From an uncultured Eubacteriales bacterium (GTDB taxonomy: Bacteria; Bacillota; Clostridia; Christensenellales; DTU072), in the NCBI GenBank assembly GCA_902766965.1, contig CACXFJ010000130.1, forward strand, positions 1 through 33,496: a stretch of DNA of 33,496 nt. Reading direction: 5' to 3'. Each line of letters starts with the position of its first letter. Positions within the stretch are counted from its first letter, which is position 1. The position numbers were made by a program, and so were the translations under genes. The notes under the pieces are model-generated. The model made no database searches, was not told the DNA's origin, and saw nothing but the letters and a program-made list of their open reading frames with translations. Positions 1,893 through 21,452 of this stretch are shown in pieces.

Positions 1893-1916
1893 AGACAAGC
1901 GGTAATATAAAAAACG

Positions 1917-1943
1917 GGCGGAACAACGAAGTTCCGCCTTTTT
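1917..1943 (+). terminator. Intrinsic terminator after the HtrA-like gene
   Basis: A perfect 8-bp stem, GGCGGAAC (1917-1924) and GTTCCGCC (1931-1938), with a 6-nt loop, is followed by TTTTT. Confidence 0.85.
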
Positions 1944-2043
1944 GTTGCCGTCAAGAAAGGTCTTTACGGAGCAAATTTACCTTCCGAGAGGATTTTTCGG
2001 CGTAAAAAATGTAATTTATACGCTTTTTTTGTAAAATTCCCCC

Positions 2044-2072
2044 TTGAAAGTTGTTTTGGTAAAGTTTATACT
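2044..2072 (+). promoter_or_regulatory. Promoter of the enoate reductase-AcnX operon
   Basis: TTGAAA (2044-2049), a 17-bp spacer and TATACT (2067-2072). The implied 5' leader is about 85 nt and ends in a strong AGGAGG. Confidence 0.7.
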
Positions 2073-2163
2073 ATAAATAAGGTAAAGATTCGCTCGCGGC
2101 GAAAGGTAACCGTCGGCGTTTTCAGATATCGGTATTTACAGCAATTGCAGGAGGATTTTTTTG

Positions 2164-4218: not shown

Positions 4219-4246
4219 TTACCGACAGCAAATAAGGAGGGTAGAT

Positions 4247-5518: not shown

Positions 5519-5952
5519 TGACTAAAATATTCAGAGGAAGAACGGTAGTTCCCGGCGAAGCCACCCTAAAAGCTCTCGTATCTCACGAAGGATTCAACAC
5601 CCTTGCTTCTTTCAAGGACTGCAAGGAGGGTAAGAACGTCTGCACCGACCAAAACAACAAGGATTTGTACGGCAAAAACACAGTCGGAGTAGCCTTGTGC
5701 CTGCCGCAGACCATAGGCTCGACCACGGGCGGTATGGTACTCTACAACGCCGCCGTAATAGGCTGTAATCCCGGCGCGCTTCTCTTCTCGAAGCCCATCG
5801 ACTCGTTGGCGGCGGCGGGAGCAATATTAGCTTCCGTGTGGACTCCCAACGGTATGCCCACGGTAGATAATCTCGGAGACGAGTTTTTGGACTACGTAAA
5901 AGACGGAATGGAAATAAAAATTCACGCCGACGGCACCGTCGAAGCGGAATAA
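5518..5952 (+). CDS. Aconitase X swivel (small) subunit, DUF126 family
   Basis: A 144-residue protein of the usual size for a separate AcnX small subunit, the swivelling beta-barrel domain that closes over the active site of the large subunit. The diagnostic stretch is LPQTIGSTTGGMVLYN (about 62-77), including the conserved Ser/Thr-Gly loop, followed by the hydrophobic core NPGALLFSKPIDSLAAAG. The start codon overlaps the large-subunit stop by one base, and GGGAGG lies within the upstream gene. In some bacteria the two subunits are fused; here they are split, as in the archaeal and type II enzymes. It is the last gene of the operon and is followed by a terminator at 5989-6021. Confidence 0.88.
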   Translation: MTKIFRGRTVVPGEATLKALVSHEGFNTLASFKDCKEGKNVCTDQNNKDLYGKNTVGVALCLPQTIGSTTGGMVLYNAAVIGCNPGALLFSKPIDSLAAAGAILASVWTPNGMPTVDNLGDEFLDYVKDGMEIKIHADGTVEAE

Positions 5953-5988
5953 TCGAGTTTATCGTCCGATAAAAATCCGAATTAAAGC

Positions 5989-6021
5989 AATCGACGCTTC
6001 TTGACGGGGCGTCGATTTTTT
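5989..6021 (+). terminator. Intrinsic terminator of the AcnX operon
   Basis: A 9-bp stem, AATCGACGC (5989-5997) and GCGTCGATT (6009-6017), continues into a run of six T. Confidence 0.85.
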
Positions 6022-6195
6022 GTATAACAAAAACCATACGATAGTCGCGGAAGTACGAATAAGGTCAATCGGTGAGTATTGAAATTAGCGCTCCGATTGT
6101 ATAGAATTCAAGTAGACCTGCCAGTCGAAAGGATAAAACACAATCGGAGTAAAAGTCGGTTTCCGGGGGTCGGCACACAAGGCGGAGCCGAAAAC

Positions 6196-6224
6196 TTGTA
6201 GAAAAAATGGTTTTATGCTACAAT
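6196..6224 (+). promoter_or_regulatory. Promoter for a short leader or small RNA upstream of the ECF sigma gene
   Basis: TTGTAG (6196-6201), a 17-bp spacer and TACAAT (6219-6224). Transcription would start near 6231 and meet the terminator at 6345-6379. Confidence 0.55.
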
Positions 6225-6230
6225 AATAAA

Positions 6231-6380
6231 ATAAGGATAAAGAAACGTTATAGATAATAATATCAAGAGGTAGCACAGACAGTAACAAACAGATTATAAG
6301 AACTCGCGACGGGAGGAACCGCCTATGAATTACGTTTAATTATAAGCGCAGAGAAAAGACTTTTTCCCTGTGCTTTTTTG
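6231..6380 (+). ncRNA. Candidate ~150-nt leader/small RNA with a four-codon ORF
   Basis: The interval is bounded by a promoter (6196-6224) and a strong intrinsic terminator (6345-6379). Near its 3' end GGGAGG (6311-6316) is well spaced before ATG AAT TAC GTT TAA (6325-6339), encoding Met-Asn-Tyr-Val. It could be an attenuator leader for the downstream sigma operon, a stable small RNA, or a decayed remnant. I do not recognise an RNA family. Confidence 0.35.
6345..6379 (+). terminator. Strong intrinsic terminator between the leader and the ECF sigma gene
   Basis: AGCGCAG (6345-6351) pairs with CTGTGCT (6368-6374) including one G-U. The stem continues past a single mismatch through GAAAA/TTTTC to a 4-nt loop, and T6374-6379 follows. 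Any transcript from the 6196 promoter should mostly stop here unless the hairpin is disrupted. Confidence 0.8.
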
Positions 6381-6484
6381 TTATAAAAGCAAAATTTTTA
6401 GCAATTTTATATTTTAACGCAACGAGACAGGCTTTTTTGTTGTCTATATAAGTGAAAGGACGCTGCACAACGAAAGGAAACGCT

Positions 6485-7045
6485 ATGAACGATCAAGAAA
6501 TCATTGCTTTGTATTGGGCAAAAAAGGAATGCGCGATATCTGCAACGGCTGAAAAATACGGAAATTACTGCTACACTATCGCTTACAATATTTTGTACGA
6601 CCATTTTGAAGCGGAAGAATGCGTCAACGATACATATTTAGGCGCGTGGAACAGTATACCTCCGCAAAGACCGAACAGATTGCCCGCGTTTCTCGGAAAA
6701 ATCACTCGCAACCTCGCTTTGAATCGATACAAGCACAAAAAAACGGCAAAACGAGGAGGAAGGCAGGTTGAAATCGCCTTGTCGGAGTTGGAAAACTGTA
6801 TACCCGACGCCGTAGGCGTAGAACAAATTGCCGAAGAATCATTTTTAGTGTCCGTAATAAATCGTTTTTTGTACGCCCAAACAAAAACGAAACGCAATAT
6901 TTTAATTCTCAGATACTGGTATCTGTATCCGATAAGAGATATTGCGGATATGTACGGCGAGAGAGAAAGTAAAATAAAAGCGTTATTGTTCCGTATGCGC
7001 AACGAACTTAAAGAAATTCTCAAAAAGGAGGAAATATACCTATGA
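6485..7045 (+). CDS. ECF-type RNA polymerase sigma factor
   Basis: A 186-residue sigma-70 family protein with only regions 2 and 4, as in extracytoplasmic-function sigma factors. Region 2 spans about 20-85, with YNILYDHFEAEECVNDTYLG followed by GKITRNLALNRYKHKK, the -10-recognition helix. Region 4 spans about 128-182, with the helix-turn-helix RDIADMYGERESKIKALLFR. The start is taken at ATG 6485 because AAAGGA lies just upstream; an in-frame GTG at 6452 would add 11 unconserved residues. The stop overlaps the next gene's ATG in an ATGA, so sigma and lipoprotein are co-translated. This suggests the partner gene controls it or is its target (inference). Its leader region contains a terminator at 6345-6379. 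Confidence 0.88.
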   Translation: MNDQEIIALYWAKKECAISATAEKYGNYCYTIAYNILYDHFEAEECVNDTYLGAWNSIPPQRPNRLPAFLGKITRNLALNRYKHKKTAKRGGRQVEIALSELENCIPDAVGVEQIAEESFLVSVINRFLYAQTKTKRNILILRYWYLYPIRDIADMYGERESKIKALLFRMRNELKEILKKEEIYL

Positions 7046-8304
7046 AACGACCAAACAGTAAGTTTATATGGACTTTGATATTGTCGACGTGCCTTGTCTT
7101 GGCGATGTGTTTCGGCACGGTATTTTTGCTTGCCGGTTGCAACGACGCGGAAGCCGCCGCGGGAACGGTAACGATGGAAATCAATCCCGGAGTGGAGTAC
7201 GTAATTACCCGAAAAGGCGACGTGAAGTCGGTACGATTCCTGAACGGCGACGCGAAAGGCTCGCTCGAAGAAGTAGAGCTGACGGGACAAAGTCTGAAAA
7301 CAGCGGTAGCGCTGACCATTGCGGCATATAAGAACGCCGGATTTATGGAAAAGAACGATACGGTATTGATTTCGTTCGACAAAAAATTGAGCGACAACGC
7401 AAAACTCAAAGAATCCGTGTCGGGATTCATTAGCGAAGCGCTCGAAAAATCAAAATCCGTTCATACCGTGGTTTACGTCGTCGCAACGGACGACGAAAAA
7501 ACAACCGCAATTGCGGAAAAACACGGTATCTCGCAAGGCAAAGCCAAACTTGTCGCCGACGCGGCGACAAACAGCGATATGTCCGAAGAAGAGCTTGTCA
7601 AACTTCCGCTTGACGAACTGGTAGGACTGCAAAAAGAAGTTGCTTCGACTGTAATAAACTCTCAATATATCGGTATGCTCAAAGCAAAAGAAATCGCGTT
7701 GAACGATGCAGGCTGTACGACGAGAGTGGAGTTTACCGAAGCAAGACTTGTCGATAACGATATAAAGAATCCGTATTACCGCCTCGTATTCAACGACAAA
7801 CGCACGCAATGGACCTATCTTGTAAAAGCGACGGACGGCGAAATTCTCGAAAAGAACGAAGTAGCGTTGTTCATATCTTTGGAAGAGGCGAAAGAGATAG
7901 CCCTGAAACATGCCGGGTTAAAGGATAAAGCCGAAGTGAAAATCGTATTTACCAAAGAAGAGTTGAGCCGCAATCAAGGTCGACCGTGCTGGATTTTGGA
8001 GTTCTATACGTCGGAATATCAATACGGATATAAAATCGACGCAAAGACGGGAGAGGTAATCTATTTCGACTATCATATAGACATAAGGGAAGCGAGAGAA
8101 ATAGCGTTAAAAGACGCCGGAGTATCTGCGGAAAGCGAAAGAATAACCTTTACCGTAGAGGAATACGTCGGCGGCGGTATAAAAACTCCGTATTTTCATT
8201 TTGTTTTCATTGCCGGACGGACAAAATGGACTTACCGTATCGATGCGACCGACGGTCAAATACTTTATAAGAACGTCGCAAAGGACAAGGATAGCGCGGT
8301 ATAA
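7042..8304 (+). CDS. Lipoprotein with RsgI-like domain and three PepSY-like repeats, coupled to the ECF sigma factor
   Basis: A 420-residue exported protein. A short basic N-terminus and a hydrophobic helix end in the lipobox LAGC (Cys33). Residues 41-112 (TVTMEINPGVEYVITRKGDV, later TVLISF) resemble the extracellular domain next to the membrane in RsgI-type anti-sigma factors. Three PepSY-like repeats follow at about 211-272, 277-342 and 346-410, each starting with an AKEIALNDAG-type helix and ending in Y-x-(V/I)-x-A-T-D-G-(E/Q)-I. There is no cytoplasmic anti-sigma domain: only about 8 residues precede the hydrophobic segment. It therefore cannot sequester sigma the way RsgI does, unless a partner encoded elsewhere helps. 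The 5' end overlaps the sigma gene by 4 nt. The last codons and the stop lie in the first copy of a repeat (8293-8465). Confidence 0.75.
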   Translation: MKRPNSKFIWTLILSTCLVLAMCFGTVFLLAGCNDAEAAAGTVTMEINPGVEYVITRKGDVKSVRFLNGDAKGSLEEVELTGQSLKTAVALTIAAYKNAGFMEKNDTVLISFDKKLSDNAKLKESVSGFISEALEKSKSVHTVVYVVATDDEKTTAIAEKHGISQGKAKLVADAATNSDMSEEELVKLPLDELVGLQKEVASTVINSQYIGMLKAKEIALNDAGCTTRVEFTEARLVDNDIKNPYYRLVFNDKRTQWTYLVKATDGEILEKNEVALFISLEEAKEIALKHAGLKDKAEVKIVFTKEELSRNQGRPCWILEFYTSEYQYGYKIDAKTGEVIYFDYHIDIREAREIALKDAGVSAESERITFTVEEYVGGGIKTPYFHFVFIAGRTKWTYRIDATDGQILYKNVAKDKDSAV

Positions 8305-8465
8305 ACGGACCACTCGTATATACCGTTGTCCCTGCTTTAAGGGCGTTACGGTTTCAGAGTTTAGAGTTTGGGAATGGGCGTGTGTTTTCTCGTCAGAATT
8401 GCCTGCGGCAATTTTGCGAACCGCATTTTGCGCGGTTCGCGGGTCCGGTATAAGGCAAATAAAAA
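8293..8465. repeat. Hairpin repeat, copy 1 (173 bp)
   Basis: Nearly the same sequence recurs at 8484-8655. It contains two perfect hairpins: AATTGCC-TGC-GGCAATT (8397-8413) and GCGAACCGC / GCGGTTCGC (8416-8440). Its left edge, GCGGTATAAACGGAC, is one inserted base away from the 3' end of the nearby tRNA-Val read in the same direction. The copy overlaps the end of the PepSY lipoprotein gene and supplies its stop codon. The body between the left edge and the hairpins is less conserved between the copies. Confidence 0.85.
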
Positions 8466-8483
8466 GAACCAACCACGATTATG

Positions 8484-8655
8484 AGCGCGGTATAACGGAC
8501 CACTCGCATATACCGTTGTCCCTGCTTTAAGAGCGTTACGGTTTCAAGGTTAGGCGTTCGGGAATGAGTGAATACTTGCTCGTCAGAATTGCCTGCGGCA
8601 ATTTTGCGAACCGCTTTTTGCGCGGTTCGCGGGTCCGGTATGGAGCAAATAAAAA
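8484..8655. repeat. Hairpin repeat, copy 2
   Basis: The second copy lies 18 bp after copy 1, with the same two hairpins at 8587-8603 and 8606-8630. Its left edge GCGGTATAACGGAC (8487-8500) is identical to 14 nt covering the T-stem and acceptor end of tRNA-Val at 8690-8703. Its right end runs into the tRNA terminator. Confidence 0.85.
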
Positions 8656-8682
8656 ACCGAGTACATATATACTCGGTTTTTT
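8651..8682 (-). terminator. Terminator of tRNA-Val
   Basis: A perfect 13-bp palindromic stem (8651-8663 with 8670-8682; core ACCGAGTA/TACTCGGT) with a 6-nt loop. The A/T arms make it work in either direction. It lies 3 bp past the CCA end of the tRNA on the minus strand. Confidence 0.85.
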
Positions 8683-8685
8683 ATT

Positions 8686-8761
8686 TGGTGCGGTATAACG
8701 GACTCGAACCGCTGACTTTCTCCACGTCAAGAAGACACTCTACCAGCTGAGTTAATACCGC
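8686..8761 (-). tRNA. tRNA-Val (anticodon GAC)
   Basis: Read on the minus strand this is a full 76-nt cloverleaf. The acceptor stem is GCGGTAT/ATACCGC, the D-arm ACTC-AGCTGGTA-GAGT, the anticodon arm TCTTC-TTGACGT-GGAGA with GAC at positions 34-36, and the T-arm AGCGG-TTCGAGT-CCGTT. The discriminator is A and the CCA is encoded. It reads the Val codon GUC. It has its own promoter (8782-8810) and terminator (8651-8682). Confidence 0.95.
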
Positions 8762-8781
8762 ATAGCTTTTTAGCAAGGATT

Positions 8782-8810
8782 ATATTATCATAAAATAAAG
8801 TGTTTGTAAA
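8782..8810 (-). promoter_or_regulatory. Promoter of tRNA-Val
   Basis: On the minus strand TTTACA (8805-8810), 17 bp and TAATAT (8782-8787). It ends about 20 bp before the tRNA 5' end. Confidence 0.6.
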
Positions 8811-8898
8811 GAGATTTTTGAAGATAGGGGGGGGGAGTTTCTGATTGCGATTAGGGCGGTTCTTGTCTGACGGGGGATTTACGGAGCGTTAAGTAAGG

Positions 8899-8931
8899 AA
8901 AGAACCGCCCGAAAATTCGGACGGTTCTTTT
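8899..8931 (-). terminator. Hairpin terminator after the membrane alpha/beta hydrolase gene
   Basis: The stem AAAGAACCG-C-CCGAA pairs with TTCGG-A-CGGTTCTTT across an AA loop with one mismatch. The T-tract on the minus strand is short, so it may be only moderately efficient. Between here and the tRNA promoter I see nothing except a run of nine G (8827-8835). Confidence 0.65.
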
Positions 8932-8966
8932 GAAAAAGAAGAACTTGTTATGATTTTCAGTTCGGT

Positions 8967-10958
8967 TTATCCGAGAACGTATGCGAAGGAAGCGGCGGTG
9001 TTTGCGCAGGTTATCATCGTAAACAACAAGGTGTTTATTATCGCGCCGAGCCACATATTGCCGGTCTTTGCGGTCATTCTTCTCGATATTACGGTAGATA
9101 TAGCAAGGATGGGAACCATCGGGATAAGGACGATATATCCGAGAGCCATATCTTTTTGCCACAGCACGCCGGTGGTCGTGAAGGTACCGTATTGAATAGC
9201 TATCACGAGCAGCACGCCGAAGATATTGAAGAATACGTTAATCAGTATCGAAGCCCATTCGGGAAGGTTCTTCGCTTTGTAGTTTTCGTTAAATAACGCG
9301 CTTACTGTGAAGAATATTCCGAAGAGAAGAGCGTATCTCATCATCGTGGGCAACATTTCTATGTTGAATACCTTAATAGCGAGAGTCCATATTCTGAAAT
9401 CAACGAGCCAGATTTTCCAGTTTATATAGGTTACGATATATACCGAAGCCACGGTGATTATCGCAAGAAGGAAAGTCTTCGCAAAACCGGTAAGTCCCGT
9501 TTGCATTCTACCCGCAAGAAAGGGATTTTCCGCCATGCCTACGCCGTCTTTACCGTATCTTACGCGGTTTACTATACCGTTTACCGCCCAGAAGAACAGG
9601 ATTACGGCAAGGGAGAACAACGCGGTGCATATACCCCACATAACGACCCAGTTCGTGGTGTCCTGCGGATAAAGTTGCGTATTAGGGAAGAATTTATCGC
9701 CGAATTCGGTGCAGATAGAGTGAATACTGAATCCGCTGAACATTGCTATTCCTATCGCGCCGAGCCAGTAGGTAAGGTGCTTTTGCAAGCCCTTTAACGG
9801 TGCGTGTTCCACGGGGGCGTTGCCCACCCAGACGAGTTCTCCGTTCGCGTTGGTTTCTTTACGTCCGATAGAGACGGAACGGAAGAAGCGAGTGGTAAGA
9901 AGAAGGCTTACGAGCGGGAATATCATAGCGAATACAGCTATAAGACCGATAAGGGAGAACATTTCTTTTACCCACCAGGTCTGATGATTTTCCGCGATGT
10001 ATTCGTGACCGTTAGGCGTGCCGAATGCGGAGTAGAAGAAGTTTACTACGGCGTTCGCGCCTTCGACCGAGCAGTGGTTCTGCGGGTGTACGCCCGCGAT
10101 TTCGTATATAACTCTGAAAGTTCCGTCCACGGCTTGTCCGCCCGCGGGGGCGACGAGTTGTCCGTTTTTATAGATGCCTTTGTTCACGATAGTGGCGTCC
10201 GCGCCCAGTCCAAGGAAGGATTTGGCGGTGGTAGTGGACAGATAATCTCTCGATATAGTGCCGCCGTTTTCTTTCGTGGTGAAGAAGAATTCGTCGTCTT
10301 TCGCTTTAAGAAAACCTACCGACACGTCGTTGCCCGCTCCCATGAAAGAACTCCACGCCTGCATAAGTCCTGCTGAAATTATGCCTACGTTTTTGTCCTG
10401 AGCAAGGGTAGCCGCCGTGGTATAACCGCCCATGGAGTGACCGGAAATACCGATTTTCGACTTGTCTACTATGTCGAGATTGTAAAGATATTTTGCGGAG
10501 TCGTATAGTCCGTTAGTCGCCATCATGGCGTTTTGCGAACCGCTGTTGTTATAGTTGCCGTGGCCTTCTCTGTCCACCGCAAGCACGATAAAACCGCGAC
10601 GGGCAAGCTCTATCGTGTTCTGTAACTGCATTTCGCGGTTGTTAAGGTATCCGTGCGTAAGAACGACTGCGGGCAAAGGATTGCTTGCGCTTGCGTCTTT
10701 CGGCACGAACAAAATGCCCGATACGACTTTACCTTTAACGGCGGTTTCGGCGGCGTTGCCTTCGGCGTCGGTAGTGGTAATCGTACCTTGATTGGTTTCG
10801 TCTCTCAGATCGAATACTTTAACGGAAAATCCGTCGGACTGTATGCACGACGCGCAGAAACTGCTTACCAAAATGACTGCCAGGCAAACCACCAGAAAAA
10901 TCAGCATTACTTTGTTCTTTTTACAATAACTCGAAACGCTGTCTTTGATGTAACTCAT
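8967..10958 (-). CDS. Alpha/beta hydrolase fused to a multi-helix membrane domain
   Basis: A 663-residue protein. Residues 16-38 form an N-terminal membrane anchor. Residues about 75-315 form an alpha/beta hydrolase fold of the dienelactone hydrolase/acyl-peptidase type: THGYLNNRE (oxyanion region, 101-109), DREGHG (129-134), the nucleophile elbow GHSMGG with Ser175, and a likely catalytic His at 291 or 295 (VHPQNHC). From about residue 333 to the end there are roughly 7-9 hydrophobic helices with no recognised domain. With an N-in anchor the hydrolase domain would be extracytoplasmic (inference). The ribosome binding site AGGAGG lies 9 nt before ATG. It is transcribed away from a PocR-AraC regulator from a promoter that abuts the regulator's, so it may be that regulator's target. 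The substrate is unknown, probably an ester or short peptide. Confidence 0.78.
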   Translation of the reverse strand: MSYIKDSVSSYCKKNKVMLIFLVVCLAVILVSSFCASCIQSDGFSVKVFDLRDETNQGTITTTDAEGNAAETAVKGKVVSGILFVPKDASASNPLPAVVLTHGYLNNREMQLQNTIELARRGFIVLAVDREGHGNYNNSGSQNAMMATNGLYDSAKYLYNLDIVDKSKIGISGHSMGGYTTAATLAQDKNVGIISAGLMQAWSSFMGAGNDVSVGFLKAKDDEFFFTTKENGGTISRDYLSTTTAKSFLGLGADATIVNKGIYKNGQLVAPAGGQAVDGTFRVIYEIAGVHPQNHCSVEGANAVVNFFYSAFGTPNGHEYIAENHQTWWVKEMFSLIGLIAVFAMIFPLVSLLLTTRFFRSVSIGRKETNANGELVWVGNAPVEHAPLKGLQKHLTYWLGAIGIAMFSGFSIHSICTEFGDKFFPNTQLYPQDTTNWVVMWGICTALFSLAVILFFWAVNGIVNRVRYGKDGVGMAENPFLAGRMQTGLTGFAKTFLLAIITVASVYIVTYINWKIWLVDFRIWTLAIKVFNIEMLPTMMRYALLFGIFFTVSALFNENYKAKNLPEWASILINVFFNIFGVLLVIAIQYGTFTTTGVLWQKDMALGYIVLIPMVPILAISTVISRRMTAKTGNMWLGAIINTLLFTMITCANTAASFAYVLG

Positions 10959-11059
10959 AAATTTTACCTCCTAATTTTTTCTGATAATTTCGTCTGTATT
11001 TTGTAAGTTTTCGCTCAAAACAGGGAAAATTATTTCGGCAAAAACCTCTTATCAATTTA

Positions 11060-11088
11060 AATATAAACAAAATCCGAAATGTTTTCAA
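11060..11088 (-). promoter_or_regulatory. Promoter of the membrane alpha/beta hydrolase gene
   Basis: On the minus strand TTGAAA (11083-11088), 17 bp and TATATT (11060-11065). Its -35 box touches the -35 box of the divergent regulator promoter with no gap. Confidence 0.65.
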
Positions 11089-11117
11089 TTGACAAATTCG
11101 CAATAAATATGTAGAAT
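11089..11117 (+). promoter_or_regulatory. Promoter of the PocR-AraC regulator gene
   Basis: A perfect TTGACA (11089-11094), 17 bp and TAGAAT (11112-11117), 38 bp upstream of the start codon. Confidence 0.7.
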
Positions 11118-11154
11118 TTAGTTGTACTTAACGGACAAACGGAGAGAATTCGTT

Positions 11155-12027
11155 ATGAAAAACAAACTGAGCGACTTGGTCGAAATAGAAAAATTACGAT
11201 TATTTTTAGGTAATCTCGCGCGAGCTACGGGGGTGTCTTTGTGCGTTGTGGACGACAACGGAAACTTTATAATACAACCCGCGAACGAAGCTCCTTTTTG
11301 CGTGGCGGTAAGGAAAGACCGGCACATAAAAGAACGGTGCGTTTATTCCGTTCTGCACGGAGCGGTCGACGCTATGCACTATAAGCGGACTGTATTTTTT
11401 AGATGTCCGTTCGGCTTGTTGGAGTTCGTCGTGCCGATTATAATAAACGGAGAATATCTGGGAGCCGTGTGCGGCGGGAAAGTGGCGGCTAAGGAGTTGG
11501 ACGCGTGCGTCGATATATCCGCACCGCGGGAAGAACCGATAAAAAACGCCGCTATCGCGACGTTATACGAAAATATCCCGACGATAGACGGCAAGAGATA
11601 TATTGAAATAACGAAGTTTATTTCCGAAGCGGTCACCAATTTTACCGAATACGGCATTATGTCCAAGATTATGCAGAAAAAGGAAAACGTCAACGCCGAC
11701 GAAAGGATAAAACCTGCCTTAGCGTACATAGAAGACAACTACTCGCAGGAAATAACTTTGGAACAGCTCGCCGCCGCTTGTTTTATAAGTAAAGATTATA
11801 TGTCTAAACTCTTTTACAGAATAACGAAAAAAAACGTGACCGAATACATATCCGATTACCGAATAAACAAGGCGAAAGAGCTTTTGCGCGACACTAATAT
11901 AAAGATAAGCGGCGTCGCCGAAAAAGTAGGTTTTTCCGACGCGGCGTACTTTTACAGAGTCTTCAAAAAGAGCGTCGGGGTCACTCCCGCGCAGTACCGT
12001 GCCACGCACAGGTCGGTTACGATTTAG
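11155..12027 (+). CDS. AraC-family transcriptional regulator with PocR sensory domain
   Basis: A 290-residue regulator. Residues about 6-115 match the PocR ligand-binding domain: a C-x12-C spacing in FCVAVRKDRHIKERC (Cys49, Cys62), then FFRCPFGLLEFVVPI (Cys84) and YLGAVCGGKV. This domain is thought to bind small organic ligands such as hydrocarbon derivatives. Residues about 184-285 form the two-helix-turn-helix AraC DNA-binding domain, with ITLEQLAAACFISKDYMSKL and the C-terminal signature GFSDAAYFYRVFKKSVGVTP. The start is ATG 11155 with GGAGAG upstream; a TTG at 11122 would overlap the promoter. It sits between a divergent hydrolase gene and the downstream sulfatase-maturase pair. Either or both could be under its control (inference). 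Confidence 0.87.
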   Translation: MKNKLSDLVEIEKLRLFLGNLARATGVSLCVVDDNGNFIIQPANEAPFCVAVRKDRHIKERCVYSVLHGAVDAMHYKRTVFFRCPFGLLEFVVPIIINGEYLGAVCGGKVAAKELDACVDISAPREEPIKNAAIATLYENIPTIDGKRYIEITKFISEAVTNFTEYGIMSKIMQKKENVNADERIKPALAYIEDNYSQEITLEQLAAACFISKDYMSKLFYRITKKNVTEYISDYRINKAKELLRDTNIKISGVAEKVGFSDAAYFYRVFKKSVGVTPAQYRATHRSVTI

Positions 12028-12133
12028 AAAGTATAGGGAACCCGAATTATCGTAAAAGATAACGAAATAAACATATTTCCGGTTTTTTGCGGCGTAAAGC
12101 AACGTGCATGTGACGCTCCGAAATAATTAGCCG

Positions 12134-12163
12134 TTGACTTCGGTATAACGGACATAGTAAAAT
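12134..12163 (+). promoter_or_regulatory. Promoter of the sulfatase-maturase operon
   Basis: TTGACT (12134-12139), 18 bp and TAAAAT (12158-12163), about 34 bp before the GTG start. It makes the operon separable from the regulator gene. Confidence 0.55.
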
Positions 12164-12196
12164 AGACTTACGACGGACGAAAGGAGAGGAAATAAA

Positions 12197-14191
12197 GTGA
12201 GCAATAAACTTTTGAAGATAGAAGACGGGTTATCGAAGGCTATGCCTTGTGCGGACTGCGGTCTGACGAGGGGTAAAATAGCGGCGTTTTTTATAAGCGT
12301 TGCGTTCACGGTGGCGATGATTGCCGCGGGGCGGAACTTTTTTCCGCTCGTAGGGGCGGTTTTGTGTGCGGCGTATGCGTTAATCGAAGTTATTTTCGTG
12401 TTGAAAAACGGCAAGCCGTCGGTTGCGATTTGCTGCGGCTACGCCGTTATTATGGTCGGGTTATATTTATTTTTCCTTATCTACGGAGCGGAAAGTTTCG
12501 GACGGAGAGTGTGGTGGAACCTTATTTTCTGCCTTCCGTCGTTGGCTCTGTGTGCGGCGACGCTGTTTTTAAGGGTCAAACCGTCGATTATGAAAGCCAC
12601 GGCGATAGTAATAGCTATCGTTATGATAGGCACTTCTATATTGTATTTTCTTTATATGAGTTTACGCCTTACGCCGAGAGTGGACAGAATGTTCGAGGGG
12701 GAAGAGGAATACTTATCCTATCTTAAAGGAAAACGAGCAGAACAGGCCCCGAACGTTCTGTTTATCTTAATGGACGATATGGCGTACGCCGATTTGTCGT
12801 GCTATTCTTACGAGAACGCGATAAACACGCCGAACATCGACGAAATAGCCGACGGCGGAATATATATGGAAAACTTTTACGCCTCCGCGCCGGTATGCAC
12901 ACCGTCAAGGTTCAGCGCGCTTACCGGAAGATACGCGACGAGAGGTTATCTCGACAACGTGATTTTCCCGACGGTGGTGGACAACGAAACCTTTTCGCCC
13001 ACGCATTTTATAAATCCGTATCAGTTTGAAAACAACGTCGACGGTATACTCGGCGACGAAATAACCATTGCCGAAGCTCTTTCTTCTCTCGGATACGACA
13101 CCGCGTGTATCGGCAAATGGAATTTGGGCGATTACGGCGAATATCTGCCCACTAATCAGGGGTTCGATTATTTTTACGGCAGTCACTACGTCAACGATAT
13201 GACGCCCTACACCTGGGTGGAAGAAACGGGCGGAAAATTTACCGAGGTTCGTTCCCACAAAGACAACCTCGACCAGTCGGAAAGCACGCGGATTTTTACC
13301 GAAGTCCTTAAAAAGAAGTTTTCCGAATCGGTGGAAAAGAACAACCCGTTTTTCGGGTTCTACGCCACGCCGTGGCCGCATTATCCGATATATTCCGACT
13401 ATAACGGCAACGGCAAGGGGGATAAATCGGACGACAGTTATATAAAGTGTATAGAAGAGTTCGACCGCAGTTTGGGAGAGATTTTTCAATATATGAAAGA
13501 CACGCCGTCGCCGGACGGGAACGGTTCGGTCTACGACAACACCCTTATTATCTTCACTTCCGACAACGGACCGGGAAGAGAGGGCGTGACCGGCTCACAC
13601 AGGGGAAGGAAGAACACGACTTTCGAAGGGGGAATGAAAGTTCCGGCGTTGATATCTTACCCTAACGGCGGCGTGGGCAAAGGCACGGTGGCAGTGAGTA
13701 AAGAGTTTATTGTAAAAAACGGCGACGGAACCGAGCGGAAAACCGTCCGTACGAAAAAACTTACTTCGGCGGCGATGCTTACCGACTTTTTCCCGACGAT
13801 TATCGACTACGCGACCGACGGACGAGCGGCAATGCCCGCCGACAGAATAATAGACGGGGTAAGTTTACGCAAGATTTGGAGCGGCGACGAGCCGAGCGAC
13901 ACGAAAGTTCACGACGCCCTTTATTATATGAAAAAAGGCAAAGTGCAAGCGGTGAGAGCCGAGATAGAAACCGACGGCAAACCCGTAAACTACAAGTATT
14001 TCGAGAACGTAGCCACGGAAAATTCCGCGTTTATAGACCAAAGGTACAAAAACTATCTTTTTAATCTCGACAGCGACCCCGCCGAAGGATACAACATATC
14101 GATGACTTATCCCGAGGTGGCGGCTAAAATGAAAAATATGCTTAAAGACTTCCGAAAAGAACTGAAAAACAACCGCAGAGGGAAGAAATAA
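12197..14191 (+). CDS. Membrane-anchored sulfatase, Cys-type formylglycine
   Basis: A 664-residue sulfuric-ester hydrolase with an unusual N-terminus. Residues 28-45, 48-69, 75-97, 105-127 and 131-156 are five predicted transmembrane helices. The sulfatase domain (about 183-650) follows, placed outside the cell if the N-terminus is inside. Metal-binding residues are visible in FILMDDMAYAD (Asp193, Asp194) and TSDNG (Asp456, Asn457). The formylglycine motif is CTPSR, with Cys234 as the residue converted to formylglycine, followed by FSALTGRY. A small cysteine pair (CADC, 18-21) precedes the first helix. The start is GTG with AAGGAGAGG upstream. The stop shares one base with the start of the maturase gene, which is expected to oxidise Cys234 before export. 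The substrate is not evident; host or dietary sulfated glycans or small sulfate esters are possible. Confidence 0.87.
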   Translation: MSNKLLKIEDGLSKAMPCADCGLTRGKIAAFFISVAFTVAMIAAGRNFFPLVGAVLCAAYALIEVIFVLKNGKPSVAICCGYAVIMVGLYLFFLIYGAESFGRRVWWNLIFCLPSLALCAATLFLRVKPSIMKATAIVIAIVMIGTSILYFLYMSLRLTPRVDRMFEGEEEYLSYLKGKRAEQAPNVLFILMDDMAYADLSCYSYENAINTPNIDEIADGGIYMENFYASAPVCTPSRFSALTGRYATRGYLDNVIFPTVVDNETFSPTHFINPYQFENNVDGILGDEITIAEALSSLGYDTACIGKWNLGDYGEYLPTNQGFDYFYGSHYVNDMTPYTWVEETGGKFTEVRSHKDNLDQSESTRIFTEVLKKKFSESVEKNNPFFGFYATPWPHYPIYSDYNGNGKGDKSDDSYIKCIEEFDRSLGEIFQYMKDTPSPDGNGSVYDNTLIIFTSDNGPGREGVTGSHRGRKNTTFEGGMKVPALISYPNGGVGKGTVAVSKEFIVKNGDGTERKTVRTKKLTSAAMLTDFFPTIIDYATDGRAAMPADRIIDGVSLRKIWSGDEPSDTKVHDALYYMKKGKVQAVRAEIETDGKPVNYKYFENVATENSAFIDQRYKNYLFNLDSDPAEGYNISMTYPEVAAKMKNMLKDFRKELKNNRRGKK

Positions 14192-15261
14192 TGCCCCCTG
14201 TATCCGTAATGATAAAACCCGCTTCTTCGGCGTGCAACCTTGCTTGCAGGTATTGTTTTTATCATTCCCTTGCCGAAAAAAGAGAGTCGGGTTGTCGCGG
14301 CGTAATGAAGACGGAACTCTTTTCCGAGATTATGAAAAAAGCTTTTTCGTTTGCCGACGGGGAAGCGGTAACTCTCTCTTTTCAAGGGGGAGAACCTCTT
14401 CTTGCAGGGAAAGAATTTTTTATTAAAGCCTTTGCCGAGATAGAAAAACTCAACGTAAAAAAAAGCCCCGTGTATATAGGCGTGCAGACGAACGGAACTC
14501 TTATAGACGACGAGTGGTGCAATATATTCGCTTCCTACGGCGTTCTCGTAGGGTTATCTTTGGACGGCGACGCCTGCGCCGACGCGTTAAGGACTTATCC
14601 CGACGGTAAAGAGAGTTTTTCCGAAGCGTTGAGGGGATACGAAAAGTTGAAAAGGCGGGGCGCGGATATAAACGTTCTCGTCGTGGTGACGAAACAAGTC
14701 GCGGAAAATATAGAAAGAATATACGATTTTTTTAAGGAGAAAGGGGTAAAATACCTTCAATACATACCCTGTCTTCGTCCTTTTGACGGAGAGGATTACG
14801 GACTGTGCCTCGACGGCGAAGAGTACGGAGAATTTTTAATAAAGGCTTTTAATCTCTACGCAAAAGACTATTTCGGCGGCAGATACGTTTCGGTAAGAAT
14901 TTTCGACAACTTCGTCTCGTTGGCTCACGGACGGAGGGCAGAACAATGCGGAATGAACGGACACTGTACTCATCAATACGTAATTGAAAGCGACGGCGAA
15001 GTCTATCCCTGCGACTTCTATTGCGCCGACGAATACTCGTTGGGCAATATAAAAGCAAACGACTTTTCCGAGATCGAAAAGAAAAATACGGCGGTAGAAT
15101 TTATTAAGGAAAGCCTTGTCAAAGACGAGAAGTGCCGCCGCTGCAACCTTTACGCGTTGTGCGCGGGCGGATGCAAAAGAGAACGCCTTTCTTTCGACTT
15201 GTGCGTCGCGTATAAAAAATTCCTGCCGTACGCCGTACCGATACTGCGTAGAATGTATTAA
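14191..15261 (+). CDS. Anaerobic sulfatase-maturating enzyme (radical SAM, SPASM)
   Basis: A 356-residue radical SAM enzyme. The N-terminal motif CNLACRYC (Cys15, Cys19, Cys22) holds the SAM-binding [4Fe-4S] cluster. SFQGGEPLL (about 63-71) is the SAM-contact GGE motif. The C-terminal SPASM region carries the auxiliary-cluster cysteines in MNGHCTHQY, VYPCDFYC, KCRRCNLYALC and GGC. Start MPPVSVMIKPASSACNLACRYC closely follows the family pattern (PFSVMIKPASSxCN). It works without oxygen in the cytosol, converting the active-site Cys or Ser of a sulfatase to formylglycine, and it is coupled directly to a CTPSR sulfatase. The one-base overlap (TAATG) indicates coupled translation. Confidence 0.93.
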   Translation: MPPVSVMIKPASSACNLACRYCFYHSLAEKRESGCRGVMKTELFSEIMKKAFSFADGEAVTLSFQGGEPLLAGKEFFIKAFAEIEKLNVKKSPVYIGVQTNGTLIDDEWCNIFASYGVLVGLSLDGDACADALRTYPDGKESFSEALRGYEKLKRRGADINVLVVVTKQVAENIERIYDFFKEKGVKYLQYIPCLRPFDGEDYGLCLDGEEYGEFLIKAFNLYAKDYFGGRYVSVRIFDNFVSLAHGRRAEQCGMNGHCTHQYVIESDGEVYPCDFYCADEYSLGNIKANDFSEIEKKNTAVEFIKESLVKDEKCRRCNLYALCAGGCKRERLSFDLCVAYKKFLPYAVPILRRMY

Positions 15262-16737: not shown

Positions 16738-17499
16738 ATGAAAAAAAGGGCGAAAGATATTCCCGTCGGGGAAGAAAAGAAACGCCCCAATGCAGGGACT
16801 TTCATCGGGACGATTATCCGTTCCGTTGCGATAGTCCTCGGATTTATTCTTAAAGTAATCTTCAAAGCGTGTACGCTGCTCGGACTGTGGATACCCATAA
16901 TTTACAGTTTGTTCGGCGTCGCGCTTTATTTGATTTTTAAGTTCAACCCCTTCGCTTTCGACACCTTAGGCACGCTCTATCTTTGCGGCGGAATAGCCTG
17001 TGTTATAGGTTCGGCTATTATCGCCGTCCGAAATCTCATCGTCCGTCCCGTCAAGTCTATATATAACGGCTACAAACACCCCTTGTGGGAGAAAGCCGAA
17101 GACGCTAAAAATATCGAAAAGAAAGAAGAAGAGAGCCGTTGGAGCAGGTATAAGAAAGAAAAAGAAACCGAAAAATATCTCCCCCCCGAAGTTCCGCAAT
17201 GGGAAAGACCCGTTACTAAAAGAACCGTCGATTACGGCTCTTTTTTAGCTCCGCTCGACGATTTCGACGAAGTTCTTAAAGAAGAACGAAGCGAAAAAAT
17301 ATCGTTGGATTGGCTCCCCAAACGCAACAGAAAAGAAGCCGAAAACGTGAATATAGTCGCGGAAACGCCTACGGAAAAACCGCAGGTATATTTCAGCGCG
17401 CTCGAACCGGACATTCTCGTCCACGAGTATTCGGACAGGTTCGAACTGTACAGAGTAAACGGGAACAGAACCACTCCCGTGGGGGTGGAATATAAATGA
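16738..17499 (+). CDS. Uncharacterised membrane protein with two or three N-terminal helices and a charged tail
   Basis: I do not recognise this 253-residue protein. Hydrophobic segments lie at about 21-46, 48-68 and 78-103. They are followed by a highly charged, probably cytoplasmic region (about 115-215, rich in Lys/Glu, KNIEKKEEESRWSRYKKEKE) with Pro/Trp motifs (LPPEVPQWERP, LDWLPKR). A more conserved-looking C-terminal block follows (QVYFSALEPDILVHEYSDR, about 216-234). It starts 2 nt after serS and has no clear ribosome binding site, so it may depend on read-through by terminating ribosomes. Its stop overlaps the next start in an ATGA, which supports it being a real gene. Confidence 0.7.
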   Translation: MKKRAKDIPVGEEKKRPNAGTFIGTIIRSVAIVLGFILKVIFKACTLLGLWIPIIYSLFGVALYLIFKFNPFAFDTLGTLYLCGGIACVIGSAIIAVRNLIVRPVKSIYNGYKHPLWEKAEDAKNIEKKEEESRWSRYKKEKETEKYLPPEVPQWERPVTKRTVDYGSFLAPLDDFDEVLKEERSEKISLDWLPKRNRKEAENVNIVAETPTEKPQVYFSALEPDILVHEYSDRFELYRVNGNRTTPVGVEYK

Positions 17500-18374
17500 A
17501 CGCGAAGGTAAAAAGAAGCAGGATTTGGGAACTTGACTTTTTCCGCGGTTTAAGTATCTTGCTCGTGGTGATAGACCACGCCATGTACGATTTTTCGGGC
17601 GTTTTTAGTTTTTGGGCGTCGTCGGGTTCTAAATTTTTGAGATTCCTTAACGCGACCGGTACGGCGTATCTTAGTAGCGACGTAAGATTTTTGTGGCGTC
17701 CGGCGTTTTTGTTCATTTTCTTTTTTACGAGCGGACTTTGCACCGCATTTTCGAGGAATAACTTTTTACGCGGACTTCGTCTTTGCATAGTAGCGGCGGT
17801 TATTTCCGTATCGACGTATCTTGCGGACAGGCTGTTCGGCACGAGCGTTTACGCTATGTTCGGCGTAATTCACTGTATAGCGACGGTCATTCTCATTTAC
17901 GCCTGCGTCGATTTTATAATAAGGTTTATACCGAAAATCTATTCGAAGATAGCGAAAAAAGAGGCAAAGCCGCAGTTTGAAAGGATTTTACATATAGTAA
18001 TTTGCCTTGCGATAGGGGTGGCGTGCTGTTTTATCAACAAAAAGTATAACGTAAGTCTGCACGAAGTCAACGGCAACTTTACCGCGATAGACACCGACTC
18101 GAAAATATTGGGATTGTTTTTCTATTGCGACAACTGGTGGACGGCGGACTATTTCCCCCTTTTTCCGTTCATTGCGTTTTTCTTCCTCGGAGCGGGATTT
18201 ACAAGAATACTTTACGAAAAAAAACGTTCTTTGTTGCCGCAACTCGACGGCGTGTGGCATAAAGCCTTTACCGTTCCCGGCAGGTACTCGATATTTTTCT
18301 ATCTCGGCGGACAGGTCGTAGCGATAGGTCTTGGAATGATGTTGTCTTTAATTATCTGCGGCAGAGCATTTTAG
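17496..18374 (+). CDS. DUF1624/HGSNAT-like membrane acyltransferase-family protein
   Basis: A 292-residue polytopic membrane protein. The N-terminal block RIWELDFFRGLSILLVVIDH matches the heparan-alpha-glucosaminide N-acetyltransferase catalytic family (DUF1624), with Arg17 and His28 in the positions conserved in these and other membrane acyltransferases. About seven hydrophobic helices follow (for example near 69-86, 98-110, 125-145, 167-180, 225-245 and 270-290), and PLFPFIAFFFLGAG (about 221-234) is typical of the family. The likely role is acyl transfer to a carbohydrate at the envelope, but no bacterial substrate can be named. The ATGA overlap with the upstream gene indicates coupling. 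The stop codon lies inside the left arm of a repeat element (18361-18610). Confidence 0.78.
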   Translation: MNAKVKRSRIWELDFFRGLSILLVVIDHAMYDFSGVFSFWASSGSKFLRFLNATGTAYLSSDVRFLWRPAFLFIFFFTSGLCTAFSRNNFLRGLRLCIVAAVISVSTYLADRLFGTSVYAMFGVIHCIATVILIYACVDFIIRFIPKIYSKIAKKEAKPQFERILHIVICLAIGVACCFINKKYNVSLHEVNGNFTAIDTDSKILGLFFYCDNWWTADYFPLFPFIAFFFLGAGFTRILYEKKRSLLPQLDGVWHKAFTVPGRYSIFFYLGGQVVAIGLGMMLSLIICGRAF

Positions 18375-18789: not shown

Positions 18790-19563
18790 ATGGCAATTAC
18801 CGTATGCTCTCTCGGGAGCGGCTCGAAAGGCAACTGTGTTTTAATATCCGACGGAAAGACGCGACTACTTATAGACGCCGGACTTAACGCTGCCGTGATA
18901 GCAAAAAAACTGTCGGAATTAGGGTTAATGCTTACCGATATGGACGGGCTTCTCATTACCCACGAACACGGCGACCATATAAGAAGCGTCGATATGCTGG
19001 CGCAGTTTATGCCGGTGTATTCCCACCCCGACACGCTGGAAAAAATTACCGAAAAATATACTATTCCGCTCAAATACCTTTTCGAAGTGGAGAATAAGTT
19101 TTCGGTAGGCACGCTGGACGTGACGCCTTTCGACGTAAGCCACGACGCGGTTCACCCGTACGGGTATTCCATAAGCGACTGGGAAAGTAAATTTACTTAC
19201 CTTACCGACACGGGATACGTATCCAAGGGTATAATGAACGTACTTAAAGGCAGCGATATAGTTATGCTGGAAAGTAACCACGATAAAGAGCTTCTGTTAC
19301 GCGGAGTTTATCCCGAACGGCTTAAAAGGAGAATTATGTCGGAGAAAGGACATTTAAGCAACGCCGAAAGCGCGTTGACTGCCTTTAATCTCGCCGCGGA
19401 CGGAACGAAAACCGTAATACTCGCCCATCTGAGCGAACAGAATAACCTGCCCGAACTTGCTTACTGGACGACGAAAAATTATCTTCGGAAAGAAATGGGC
19501 GACGAAAGCCGCGGGTGCAATATACTCGTAGCTACGCAAAAAGACACGGTGGTGGCGGAATGA
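18790..19563 (+). CDS. walJ: WalJ/YycJ-type MBL-fold metallohydrolase
   Basis: A 257-residue metallo-beta-lactamase-fold protein. The start ITVCSLGSGSKGNCVLI and the metal motif THEHGDH (His58, His60, Asp62, His63) match the WalJ/YycJ family, along with a central DVSHDAVHP and TDTGYV (metal-bridging Asp). The family is linked to cell-wall homeostasis and to DNA repair-type exonuclease activity in Firmicutes. In Bacillus it belongs to the walRK operon, but no walR or walK is present here. GGGAAG stands just before the ATG. It opens a run of eight genes extending to mfd, and its stop overlaps the next start in an ATGA. Confidence 0.87.
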   Translation: MAITVCSLGSGSKGNCVLISDGKTRLLIDAGLNAAVIAKKLSELGLMLTDMDGLLITHEHGDHIRSVDMLAQFMPVYSHPDTLEKITEKYTIPLKYLFEVENKFSVGTLDVTPFDVSHDAVHPYGYSISDWESKFTYLTDTGYVSKGIMNVLKGSDIVMLESNHDKELLLRGVYPERLKRRIMSEKGHLSNAESALTAFNLAADGTKTVILAHLSEQNNLPELAYWTTKNYLRKEMGDESRGCNILVATQKDTVVAE

Positions 19564-20423
19564 CGGAAAAGAAGAACCTGACCCCCGAATTATCGTCGAT
19601 AATCTTCCTTATAGGTTTTGCGTTCTATCAGATAACGGGACTTATTTTAGCTACGGTCATGGACGTAAAAAGCAACGCGTATATCTTCGTCGCGTACGCT
19701 CTGCCGCAGGTAGCGTATATTGCCGTCACTTTTATTACCGTAAAGGTATGCAAGGTTGAGTTTAAGTTGCTGCCCGAAAAAGGTTCGGTGGGCAAAGCGG
19801 ATTATCCGCTCGCCGTTTTATTGGGATTAGGGATATTCTTCTTTGCGTTACTGCCGAATTTCGGAGTGCAGAAACTCATCACGCTTTTGGGCAAAACGCC
19901 GCAGGTTACGTTACCCGACCTTACTTCGCCGGTTAGTTGCGTCGTTGCGGCGATAGTAATATGCGTGTTGCCGGCAATAGGGGAAGAACTCGTTTTCAGA
20001 AAGGTTTTCGTAGACGGGTTCTCGAAATACGGAAAGATAAACGCCGTTATTATAAGCGGAGTTTTGTTTGGGCTTAGCCACCTTAACTTAGCTCAAACGA
20101 TACATCAGATTTTCTTGGGGTGTATCCTTTCGTATCTGTACGTTAAGACTAAAAATATAACGCTTACCGCGATAATACATTTTATCAACAATTTTCTCGC
20201 GTTGTTTCTTACCCGTTTTACGGGAGAAGAAGTGTGGAATAATCTCGTTACGCTGGGAATTTGTTGCGCGATAGGCGCGGTATTTATAGCGATAAACGCA
20301 ATATATTTAATTAAAAGAAAGCCGAAAATTACCAACGACGGCAGGGAAAAACCGTCGACGTTCGCGATAGGATTTTTCGTTTTCGTGGCGGCAATGTGGG
20401 TAATAGCGGCGGTCTTTTCATAG
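19560..20423 (+). CDS. CPBP-family intramembrane metalloprotease (first of two)
   Basis: A 287-residue polytopic protein of the CAAX protease/bacteriocin-processing (Abi) family. Motif 1 is EELVFRKVF (Glu142, Glu143, Arg147), motif 2 is FGLSHLNLAQ (His174) and motif 3 is IIHFINN (His207, Asn210). These form the glutamyl-type catalytic site within the membrane. About seven to eight helices are visible. Start ATG 19560 is chosen for the 4-nt overlap with walJ; upstream in-frame codons overlap walJ further without support. In bacteria such proteins are used for bacteriocin self-immunity, membrane-protein cleavage or stress responses; the substrate here is unknown. Confidence 0.87.
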   Translation: MTEKKNLTPELSSIIFLIGFAFYQITGLILATVMDVKSNAYIFVAYALPQVAYIAVTFITVKVCKVEFKLLPEKGSVGKADYPLAVLLGLGIFFFALLPNFGVQKLITLLGKTPQVTLPDLTSPVSCVVAAIVICVLPAIGEELVFRKVFVDGFSKYGKINAVIISGVLFGLSHLNLAQTIHQIFLGCILSYLYVKTKNITLTAIIHFINNFLALFLTRFTGEEVWNNLVTLGICCAIGAVFIAINAIYLIKRKPKITNDGREKPSTFAIGFFVFVAAMWVIAAVFS

Positions 20424-20438
20424 AATGACGGAGGAATT

Positions 20439-21452
20439 GTGACAAAAACTACTAAAATAAGCGCAATATTCTTTATTACCACGTTGTGGCTGGTTATTAT
20501 GAGGATAGTTTTTTCTTTCGTGGAGCTGAGCGACAACGTTTCCGGCTGGCTGTTTTCCATAATGATGCAGGTAATCGGCATGGGGGTTATTCCCTTCGTA
20601 TTATTTAAGTTCTGGGTTAAGGAAGACGTGGTAAGTGGATTTTCTCTTAAAGTAAAAATTCCGCCCGTTACCTACCTTCTCGCGATTGTCCTCGGATTTT
20701 TGCTTAGTTACGTCACCACCGGCGTGAGCCTTATATGGCAAAATATTCTTATCCTTTTAGGATACACTCACGTTAACGCCCCCGGCACTATTTATTCCGA
20801 CGCAGGGGTTCTTATAATGGAACTTTTCACCACGGCTATGCTCCCGGCGTTCTTTGAAGAATTTACCGACAGAGGGCTTGTTTTACGAATGTTCAGAGGG
20901 ATAGATAACGAAAAGACCGTGGTTATATTGACCGCAGTCCTGTTCGGACTTGCTCATCAGAACATTATGCAGACGGGGTACGCTTTCGTCGGCGGACTTG
21001 CATTCGCATACCTTGCATTAAAGACGAAGAGCATCTTCCCCGGCATGATAATTCACTTCATCAACAACGCGCTCAGCGTAATAAGCGGTTATTCTTCGCA
21101 GCATAACGGTCTTTACGCGGCAGTGCAAGACAAATTTTACGCCTTTATCAGCGGTCACTTCCTCGTAGCGGTATTGACGTGGGCGGCGGCGGGAGCTTTG
21201 ATTGTCGTTATATTGAAATATATCGCGAAAATACAGCCGAAAGAAAAACCGTCGGAAAAGGAAGGAGACGTATTTTTCTTCCCCAACAAATTGCAATACG
21301 TCGACGATATTTTCGGAGCGGGGTTAAGAAAAGACGTCGCGAGAATTTCCGTAGCCAAGCCTTACTGGTACGAGTACGCGTTTTTGTACGGTTCGATAGC
21401 CATGATGACTCTCACCACCTTATTTACCTTTATGTGGGGAGTGTGGCGATGA
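20439..21452 (+). CDS. CPBP-family intramembrane metalloprotease (second of two)
   Basis: A 337-residue relative of the gene just upstream, 15 bp away and not a close copy. Motif 1 is FFEEFTDRGLVLR (Glu140, Glu141, Arg145), motif 2 is FGLAHQNIMQ (His173) and motif 3 is IIHFINN (His206, Asn209). It differs in having a charged insertion near 272-300 (KEKPSEKEGD, then FFFPNKLQYVDD) before the last helix. The start is GTG 20439 with GGAGG upstream. The stop overlaps the rlmH start in an ATGA. The paired arrangement suggests two proteases that either cooperate or act on different substrates. Confidence 0.86.
   Translation: MTKTTKISAIFFITTLWLVIMRIVFSFVELSDNVSGWLFSIMMQVIGMGVIPFVLFKFWVKEDVVSGFSLKVKIPPVTYLLAIVLGFLLSYVTTGVSLIWQNILILLGYTHVNAPGTIYSDAGVLIMELFTTAMLPAFFEEFTDRGLVLRMFRGIDNEKTVVILTAVLFGLAHQNIMQTGYAFVGGLAFAYLALKTKSIFPGMIIHFINNALSVISGYSSQHNGLYAAVQDKFYAFISGHFLVAVLTWAAAGALIVVILKYIAKIQPKEKPSEKEGDVFFFPNKLQYVDDIFGAGLRKDVARISVAKPYWYEYAFLYGSIAMMTLTTLFTFMWGVWR

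Follow-up and report, generated by a model that had tools for sequence, protein, structure and literature searches.

A predicted five-helix formylglycine sulfatase coupled to its own anaerobic maturase in uncultured Clostridia

Proteins of the LtaS, PbgA and EptA types have five helices followed by a domain of the alkaline phosphatase superfamily, which is predicted to lie outside the membrane. In PbgA, according to PMC4973235, five helices are joined to a sulfatase-like domain that has no formylglycine (FGly) residue. The same layout is found in the gene pair that is our subject here, a sulfatase and an anaerobic maturase encoded at positions 12,197 to 15,261 of a 33,496-nucleotide contig (CACXFJ010000130.1, assembly GCA_902766965.1) from an uncultured Eubacteriales bacterium, a stretch that was analyzed as a whole and that we call the window. 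While LtaS has a catalytic Thr at the nucleophile position, the window sulfatase has the Cys of a CxPxR motif (CTPSR) and a paired maturase. The S1 FGly sulfatases, among them GALNS, arylsulfatase A (ARSA) and the S1_16 and S1_19 enzymes, share with it the catalytic domain, the CxPxR motif and most of the tabulated residues that bind metal and sulfate, but the five N-terminal helices are a feature of the window family, and an Asn at the His115/His125 position is a feature of its larger subclade. As for the maturase, it aligns over nearly its full length with the anaerobic sulfatase-maturating enzyme (anSME) of PDB entries 4K36-4K39, which we take to be that of Clostridium perfringens, and has the CxxxCxxC and [YF]PCD motifs in common with it, but the window gene is coupled to that of a single, dedicated membrane sulfatase. 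A membrane anchor on a sulfatase is in itself nothing new, as PMC6388578 predicts membrane-anchored sulfatases in Kiritimatiellales. Our full-text literature search found no account of a five-helix FGly sulfatase with a dedicated anSME and no description of the His-to-Asn subclade, and PMC4973235 was the sole paper found to join LtaS, sulfatase and formylglycine. We propose, with a probability of about 0.68, that the pair is a self-contained unit in which a membrane-integral, cell-surface sulfatase would be matured in the cytoplasm before export and would probably be directed at glycans, its membrane domain not being that of LtaS.

The sulfatase open reading frame (ORF; 12197..14191, forward strand, as are the other parts of the pair and the upstream regulator) encodes an S1 (formylglycine-type) protein of 664 residues with a GTG start, which is preceded by the purine-rich, ribosome-binding-like AAGGAGAGG at about 12181-12189. 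Kyte–Doolittle hydropathy predicts five transmembrane helices at residues 26-44, 51-69, 77-95, 109-127 and 134-152 (12272..12652). There follow a juxtamembrane linker (residues 155-184, 12659..12748), where G168, Y172 and L173 are invariant in the alignment, and the catalytic domain PF00884 (residues 185-539, 12749..13813), which Pfam matches at an E value of 1.7e-43 and 149.5 bits, against a cut-off of 25. The CTPSR motif starts at residue 234 (12896..12910), and Cys234 is the expected formylglycine residue. Among solved structures, the nearest are GALNS, steryl-sulfatase, ARSA and the S1_19 and S1_16 carrageenan sulfatases. A low-confidence AlphaFold2 model likewise has the N-terminal helices, and the best 50 matches listed by Foldseek for this model are S1-type sulfatases with a TM-score of ~0.37 by query; the model informs on fold class only.

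The maturase ORF (14191..15261) shares one base with the sulfatase ORF (TAATG), its first base being the final one of the sulfatase stop. Its domains and structure alignment identify it as a radical SAM/SPASM enzyme of the anSME type: Pfam finds radical SAM (PF04055) and SPASM (PF13186) domains, residues 1-352 align with the solved anSME 4K37 at an E value of 7e-86, and its top two NCBIfam families, PRK13758 and TIGR03942, are both anaerobic sulfatase maturases. CxxxCxxC and [YF]PCD are each present in 30 of 30 complete maturase homologues. A first, sequence-only reading of this DNA had described a sulfatase with a genuine FGly motif on a frame of five helices, translationally coupled to an anaerobic maturase. 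Both parts are borne out, the first by the PF00884 score, the motif at 234 and the five hydropathy peaks, the second by the one-base overlap and the 4K37 alignment. In the source genome (1.67 Mb, 141 contigs, 96% complete), the only PF00884 match and the only TIGR03942 match are the window pair. The distance matrices of sulfatase and maturase correlate across the family with r = 0.75 (n = 28), as against a maximum of 0.231 in 2000 permutations.

Protein searches found matches in 15 of the 40 genomes of the same taxonomic family and, at E <= 1e-40, in 34 of the 297 genomes of the order; both counts include the source genome, and the second includes one genome (G198) with a frame of only 482 residues, which is probably helix-free. 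From these, and from a search of genome contigs that supplied one named record (L002, a Clostridia metagenome-assembled genome of roe deer caecum origin), we assembled 42 loci (L001-L042), which after removal of the duplicates L001, L021 and L015 gave 39 distinct proteins. All 39 have C[ST]P[SA]R, and five hydrophobic segments lie ahead of the Cys in 34 at a hydropathy of 1.6 and in 37 at 1.3. No hydrophobic segment follows the Cys in any of the 39, and 79-94 residues separate the last helix from the Cys. The maturase gene is adjacent in 35/39, with a gap of -4 to +80 nt in 34 and of 658 nt in one (L016); among the other four, L023 has a second sulfatase in tandem and then a maturase, and L022 stops at a contig edge. 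Since this architecture recurs in 39 distinct homologues, it is more than chance. The idea that the helices might be a common feature of an already described sulfatase subfamily holds in part: they are general in one clade of the order, of which we found no description in the literature. Beyond the order, the window's own match was joined by seven others in 391 genomes of the class, all in frames of 462-519 residues, and by one other, of 466 residues, in 398 genomes of the phylum, with at most three candidates scored per genome; neither set showed a further membrane-domain member. Of the long-frame PF00884 matches in relatives, those with a locus were covered, and unrelated multi-helix FGly sulfatases may exist elsewhere. 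Variations on the pair were also seen: in G207 (L124, 2206-7527) the five-helix sulfatase is duplicated in tandem ahead of a single maturase, in G185 (L125) a second sulfatase copy and its maturase stand at the start of another contig, and in G153 (L052) two ORFs of 2448 and 2201 residues, possibly giant surface proteins, are found near the pair.

How does the membrane domain relate to that of LtaS? From the relatives we drew proteins with multiple helices and a G-G-x-T-x-x-E-F-type motif, which we presume to be of the LtaS type; 13 had at least three helices, and the ten of these with a findable motif were used. When profiles were compared with hhalign, the catalytic domains of the window family and the LtaS set matched with a probability of 97.4%, but the membrane regions with only 2.8%, while the positive controls, two halves of the window family and two halves of the LtaS set, matched at 100% and 97.4%. 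Homology with the LtaS membrane domain was rejected on these values, and kinship with LtaS of what the sequence-only reading had called an LtaS-like frame is not supported. Because the membrane regions do not match while both controls do, the resemblance to LtaS is an analogy of layout, and the frame appears to have arisen separately. A descent from LtaS could still be imagined, in which an enzyme of that lineage secondarily gained a formylglycine motif and kept the frame, perhaps together with a polymerase or transferase chemistry. The helices are alike in number, order and predicted orientation and the catalytic domains are homologous, yet besides the mismatch of the membrane regions, LtaS-like proteins score ~20 bits against the family profile where helix-free FGly sulfatases score up to 488, it is helix-free sulfatases that adjoin the membrane clade in the tree, and the three LtaS-like proteins that match the family profile have no C-x-P/A-x-R. 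We consider such a descent scarcely credible.

The tree, of 54 rows (midpoint-rooted, with a warning of long branches from the tool), places the 40 membrane rows in one group with 99/97 support and two helix-free proteins of the same class, L126 and L127, next to it with 100/100; all further rows are helix-free. These two have the closest catalytic domain found and a His at 309, but no membrane domain, and no maturase was found in their 9-12 kb stretches. The HDEYL motif seen behind helix 5 in most family members also occurs in the short N-terminal linker of L126, and L127 starts with a close variant of it. Genes for an alpha-L-rhamnosidase, a GH43-CBM6 protein and a GH2 protein are their neighbors; in L127, the sulfatase is flanked by two URO-D-family proteins. 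Since the closest relatives that we found are sulfatases without helices, soluble and encoded in glycoside hydrolase loci, the membrane domain is probably a clade-specific, single addition, by one fusion, to a glycan-type sulfatase. A hydrophobic N-terminal segment was absent from all 21 rows with an FGly motif (17 distinct sulfatases) sampled from relatives, and the view that a cleavable signal peptide is the norm for sulfatases is too broad here.

The distribution of charges supports an orientation with the N terminus inside and the catalytic domain outside. Predicted-inside loops carry 9.0 K/R per protein and predicted-outside loops 1.7, with the same direction in 22/22 aligned members, and with this bias an odd number of helices would place the catalytic domain outside. 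Conservation in the membrane domain peaks in the loop between helices 3 and 4 (residues 96-108, GAxxFGxRxxxN, 12482..12520), predicted outside, with a mean column identity of 0.65 versus 0.38-0.44 in the helices, and the membrane domain is therefore probably more than a mere anchor. Searched against Pfam, the membrane alignment gave scattered matches, the best at 6.3e-05 (DUF6056, 2/21 members) and no family in more than 3/21; against the PDB there was nothing significant (best E value 0.094). Were the membrane domain inverted, with the N terminus out, the sulfatase domain would be cytoplasmic and within reach of the maturase without a timing problem. This would do away with the export problem, and the nearest relatives (loci L067/L068, with the same genes as L126/L127) lack a hydrophobic segment at the N terminus and are probably cytoplasmic themselves. 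We nevertheless regard an inverted domain as improbable, because the positive charges favor the opposite orientation in every aligned member and five helices then put the domain outside.

Because anSME enzymes act in the cytoplasm, Cys234 would have to acquire its modification before the chain behind helix 5 is exported. We picture the self-contained unit as working in the following way. In the cytoplasm, the maturase would act on the nascent or untranslocated chain and oxidize Cys234 to formylglycine, and the one-base gene coupling would help this modification to precede export. With the five helices inserted N-in, the catalytic domain would be left on the outer face of the membrane, where it would hydrolyze sulfate esters by the S1 FGly mechanism, as its conserved active-site residues suggest. 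Judging by the nearest relatives, the substrate would most likely be a sulfated glycan or glycan fragment that reaches the cell surface. The sequence-only reading had suggested a membrane-associated substrate, and it might instead be membrane-bound or lipid-linked, such as a sulfolipid, a steroid sulfate or a sulfated lipid-linked precursor, to which the helices would bring the active site. This would fit with an integral membrane domain kept across the family, with its conserved predicted outside loop and with human steryl-sulfatase, which is membrane-associated, ranking second among the solved structures matched by the family profile. However, GALNS and carrageenan sulfatases match about equally well, the neighborhood has no conserved lipid or steroid gene, and an anchor may merely hold the enzyme at the cell surface, so we view a lipid substrate as unlikely, if worth keeping in mind. 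Apart from the maturase, no gene recurs next to the pair family-wide in the 21 stretches compared (L054 was left unresolved by the simple gene caller), which rules out a conserved substrate operon; a few neighboring genes recur only among five closely related genomes.

In a 22-sequence alignment, D193, D194, C234, R238, K307, H395, D456, N457 and K472 are invariant. On assignments based on GALNS and ARSA alignments, these nine match nine of the ten metal-, FGly- and sulfate-binding positions tabulated for PAS, ARSA and GALNS in PMC4014121. The tenth, His115 in PAS, His125 in ARSA and His142 in GALNS, is Asn309 in the window protein (13121..13123), which aligns with ARSA His125. The equivalent His is presented as a possible base eliminating sulfate in PMC4014121 (SGSH His125) and PMC5066984 (PAS His115). 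Position 309 is Asn in 25/25 members of the larger subclade, which includes the window protein, and His in the 17 other rows compared; the subclade has 85/86 support, rising to 98/98 together with its His-bearing sister L018. The motif GKWNLG has 15 DNA matches in the 391 class genomes, and by the family profile the window's own is the sole one of these inside a sulfatase; for GKWHLG, 26 of the 28 frames examined, from 30 loci among 52 matches, lie in sulfatases. His354 (13256..13258), which does not vary in the Asn309 subclade (25/25) and occurs in L018 and L017 as well, might stand in for the lost base, and turnover in the subclade would proceed by another base or by a differing route. Since BcPMH, an FGly hydrolase, has a Thr at the same position (PMC4014121), a missing His alone does not imply lost turnover. 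A far more speculative scenario is that, with no elimination base, the Asn309 subclade would stabilize a sulfo-formylglycine, to which the membrane domain would present an acceptor. The protein would then be a membrane sulfotransferase, an independent FGly counterpart of the LtaS design, in which a nucleophile-bound group is passed to a membrane acceptor; we deem this very improbable.

Several results weigh against the proposed surface sulfatase unit. With Asn309 in place of the His, turnover could be altered or lost. The maturase scores under the curated NCBIfam cut-offs (345.6 of 441 bits for PRK13758 and 310 of 349 for TIGR03942). Membrane-clade loci have no conserved glycoside hydrolases, and the glycan substrate is for this reason carried over from the relatives. 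Two homologues, L032 and L033, have only four hydrophobic segments at both hydropathy cut-offs, and L012 and L017 show no maturase in the remaining 1.03 and 0.73 kb of their loci. The AlphaFold2 model, built from five sequences, is poor, with a mean pLDDT of 50.3.

Within its own genus, the sulfatase gene is found in one of ten genomes, that of the window. serS, the next gene downstream of the pair (15464 onward), is present in 10/10, and the two genes after it keep their order in seven of the eight neighbor stretches read. In the six of these stretches that extend at least 3.9 kb upstream of serS (L088-L092 and L094), none of the genes of window positions 483-15261 lies in that upstream part. 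The pair sits in an accessory stretch, of a GC content ordinary for the window, and serS is its boundary to the syntenic genes, among which is an HGSNAT_cat membrane protein (17496-18374). Upstream of the sulfatase, Pfam identifies a PocR-type sensory domain with an AraC-type regulator (11122..12027); it is not conserved beside the homologues, and its linkage to the pair is uncertain. Elsewhere in the window, a BaiCD/bilirubin-reductase-like OYE flavoenzyme adjoins an aconitase X encoded by two genes, for the AcnX large subunit and the swivel (2161-5952), which are possibly one catabolic operon. A Sigma-70 region 2 protein overlaps a protein that has both an RsgI-like anti-sigma central domain and a PepSY domain (6452-8304), the two resembling a SigI/RsgI pair, and two Rce1-like CAAX protease genes stand side by side at 19515-21449.

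If the proposed unit is real, a five-helix frame ahead of an alkaline-phosphatase-superfamily domain would have been assembled at least twice, in LtaS and in an FGly sulfatase. It would also pose a clean export question, in which a cytoplasmic radical SAM enzyme has to meet a Cys that follows the last helix of a polytopic protein at a distance of 79-94 residues. With its His-bearing membrane relatives alongside, the Asn309 subclade amounts to a natural experiment on the base proposed to eliminate sulfate in FGly sulfatases. For the organism itself, our reading would mean that the source genome relies on just one enzyme of this superfamily to desulfate surface substrates.

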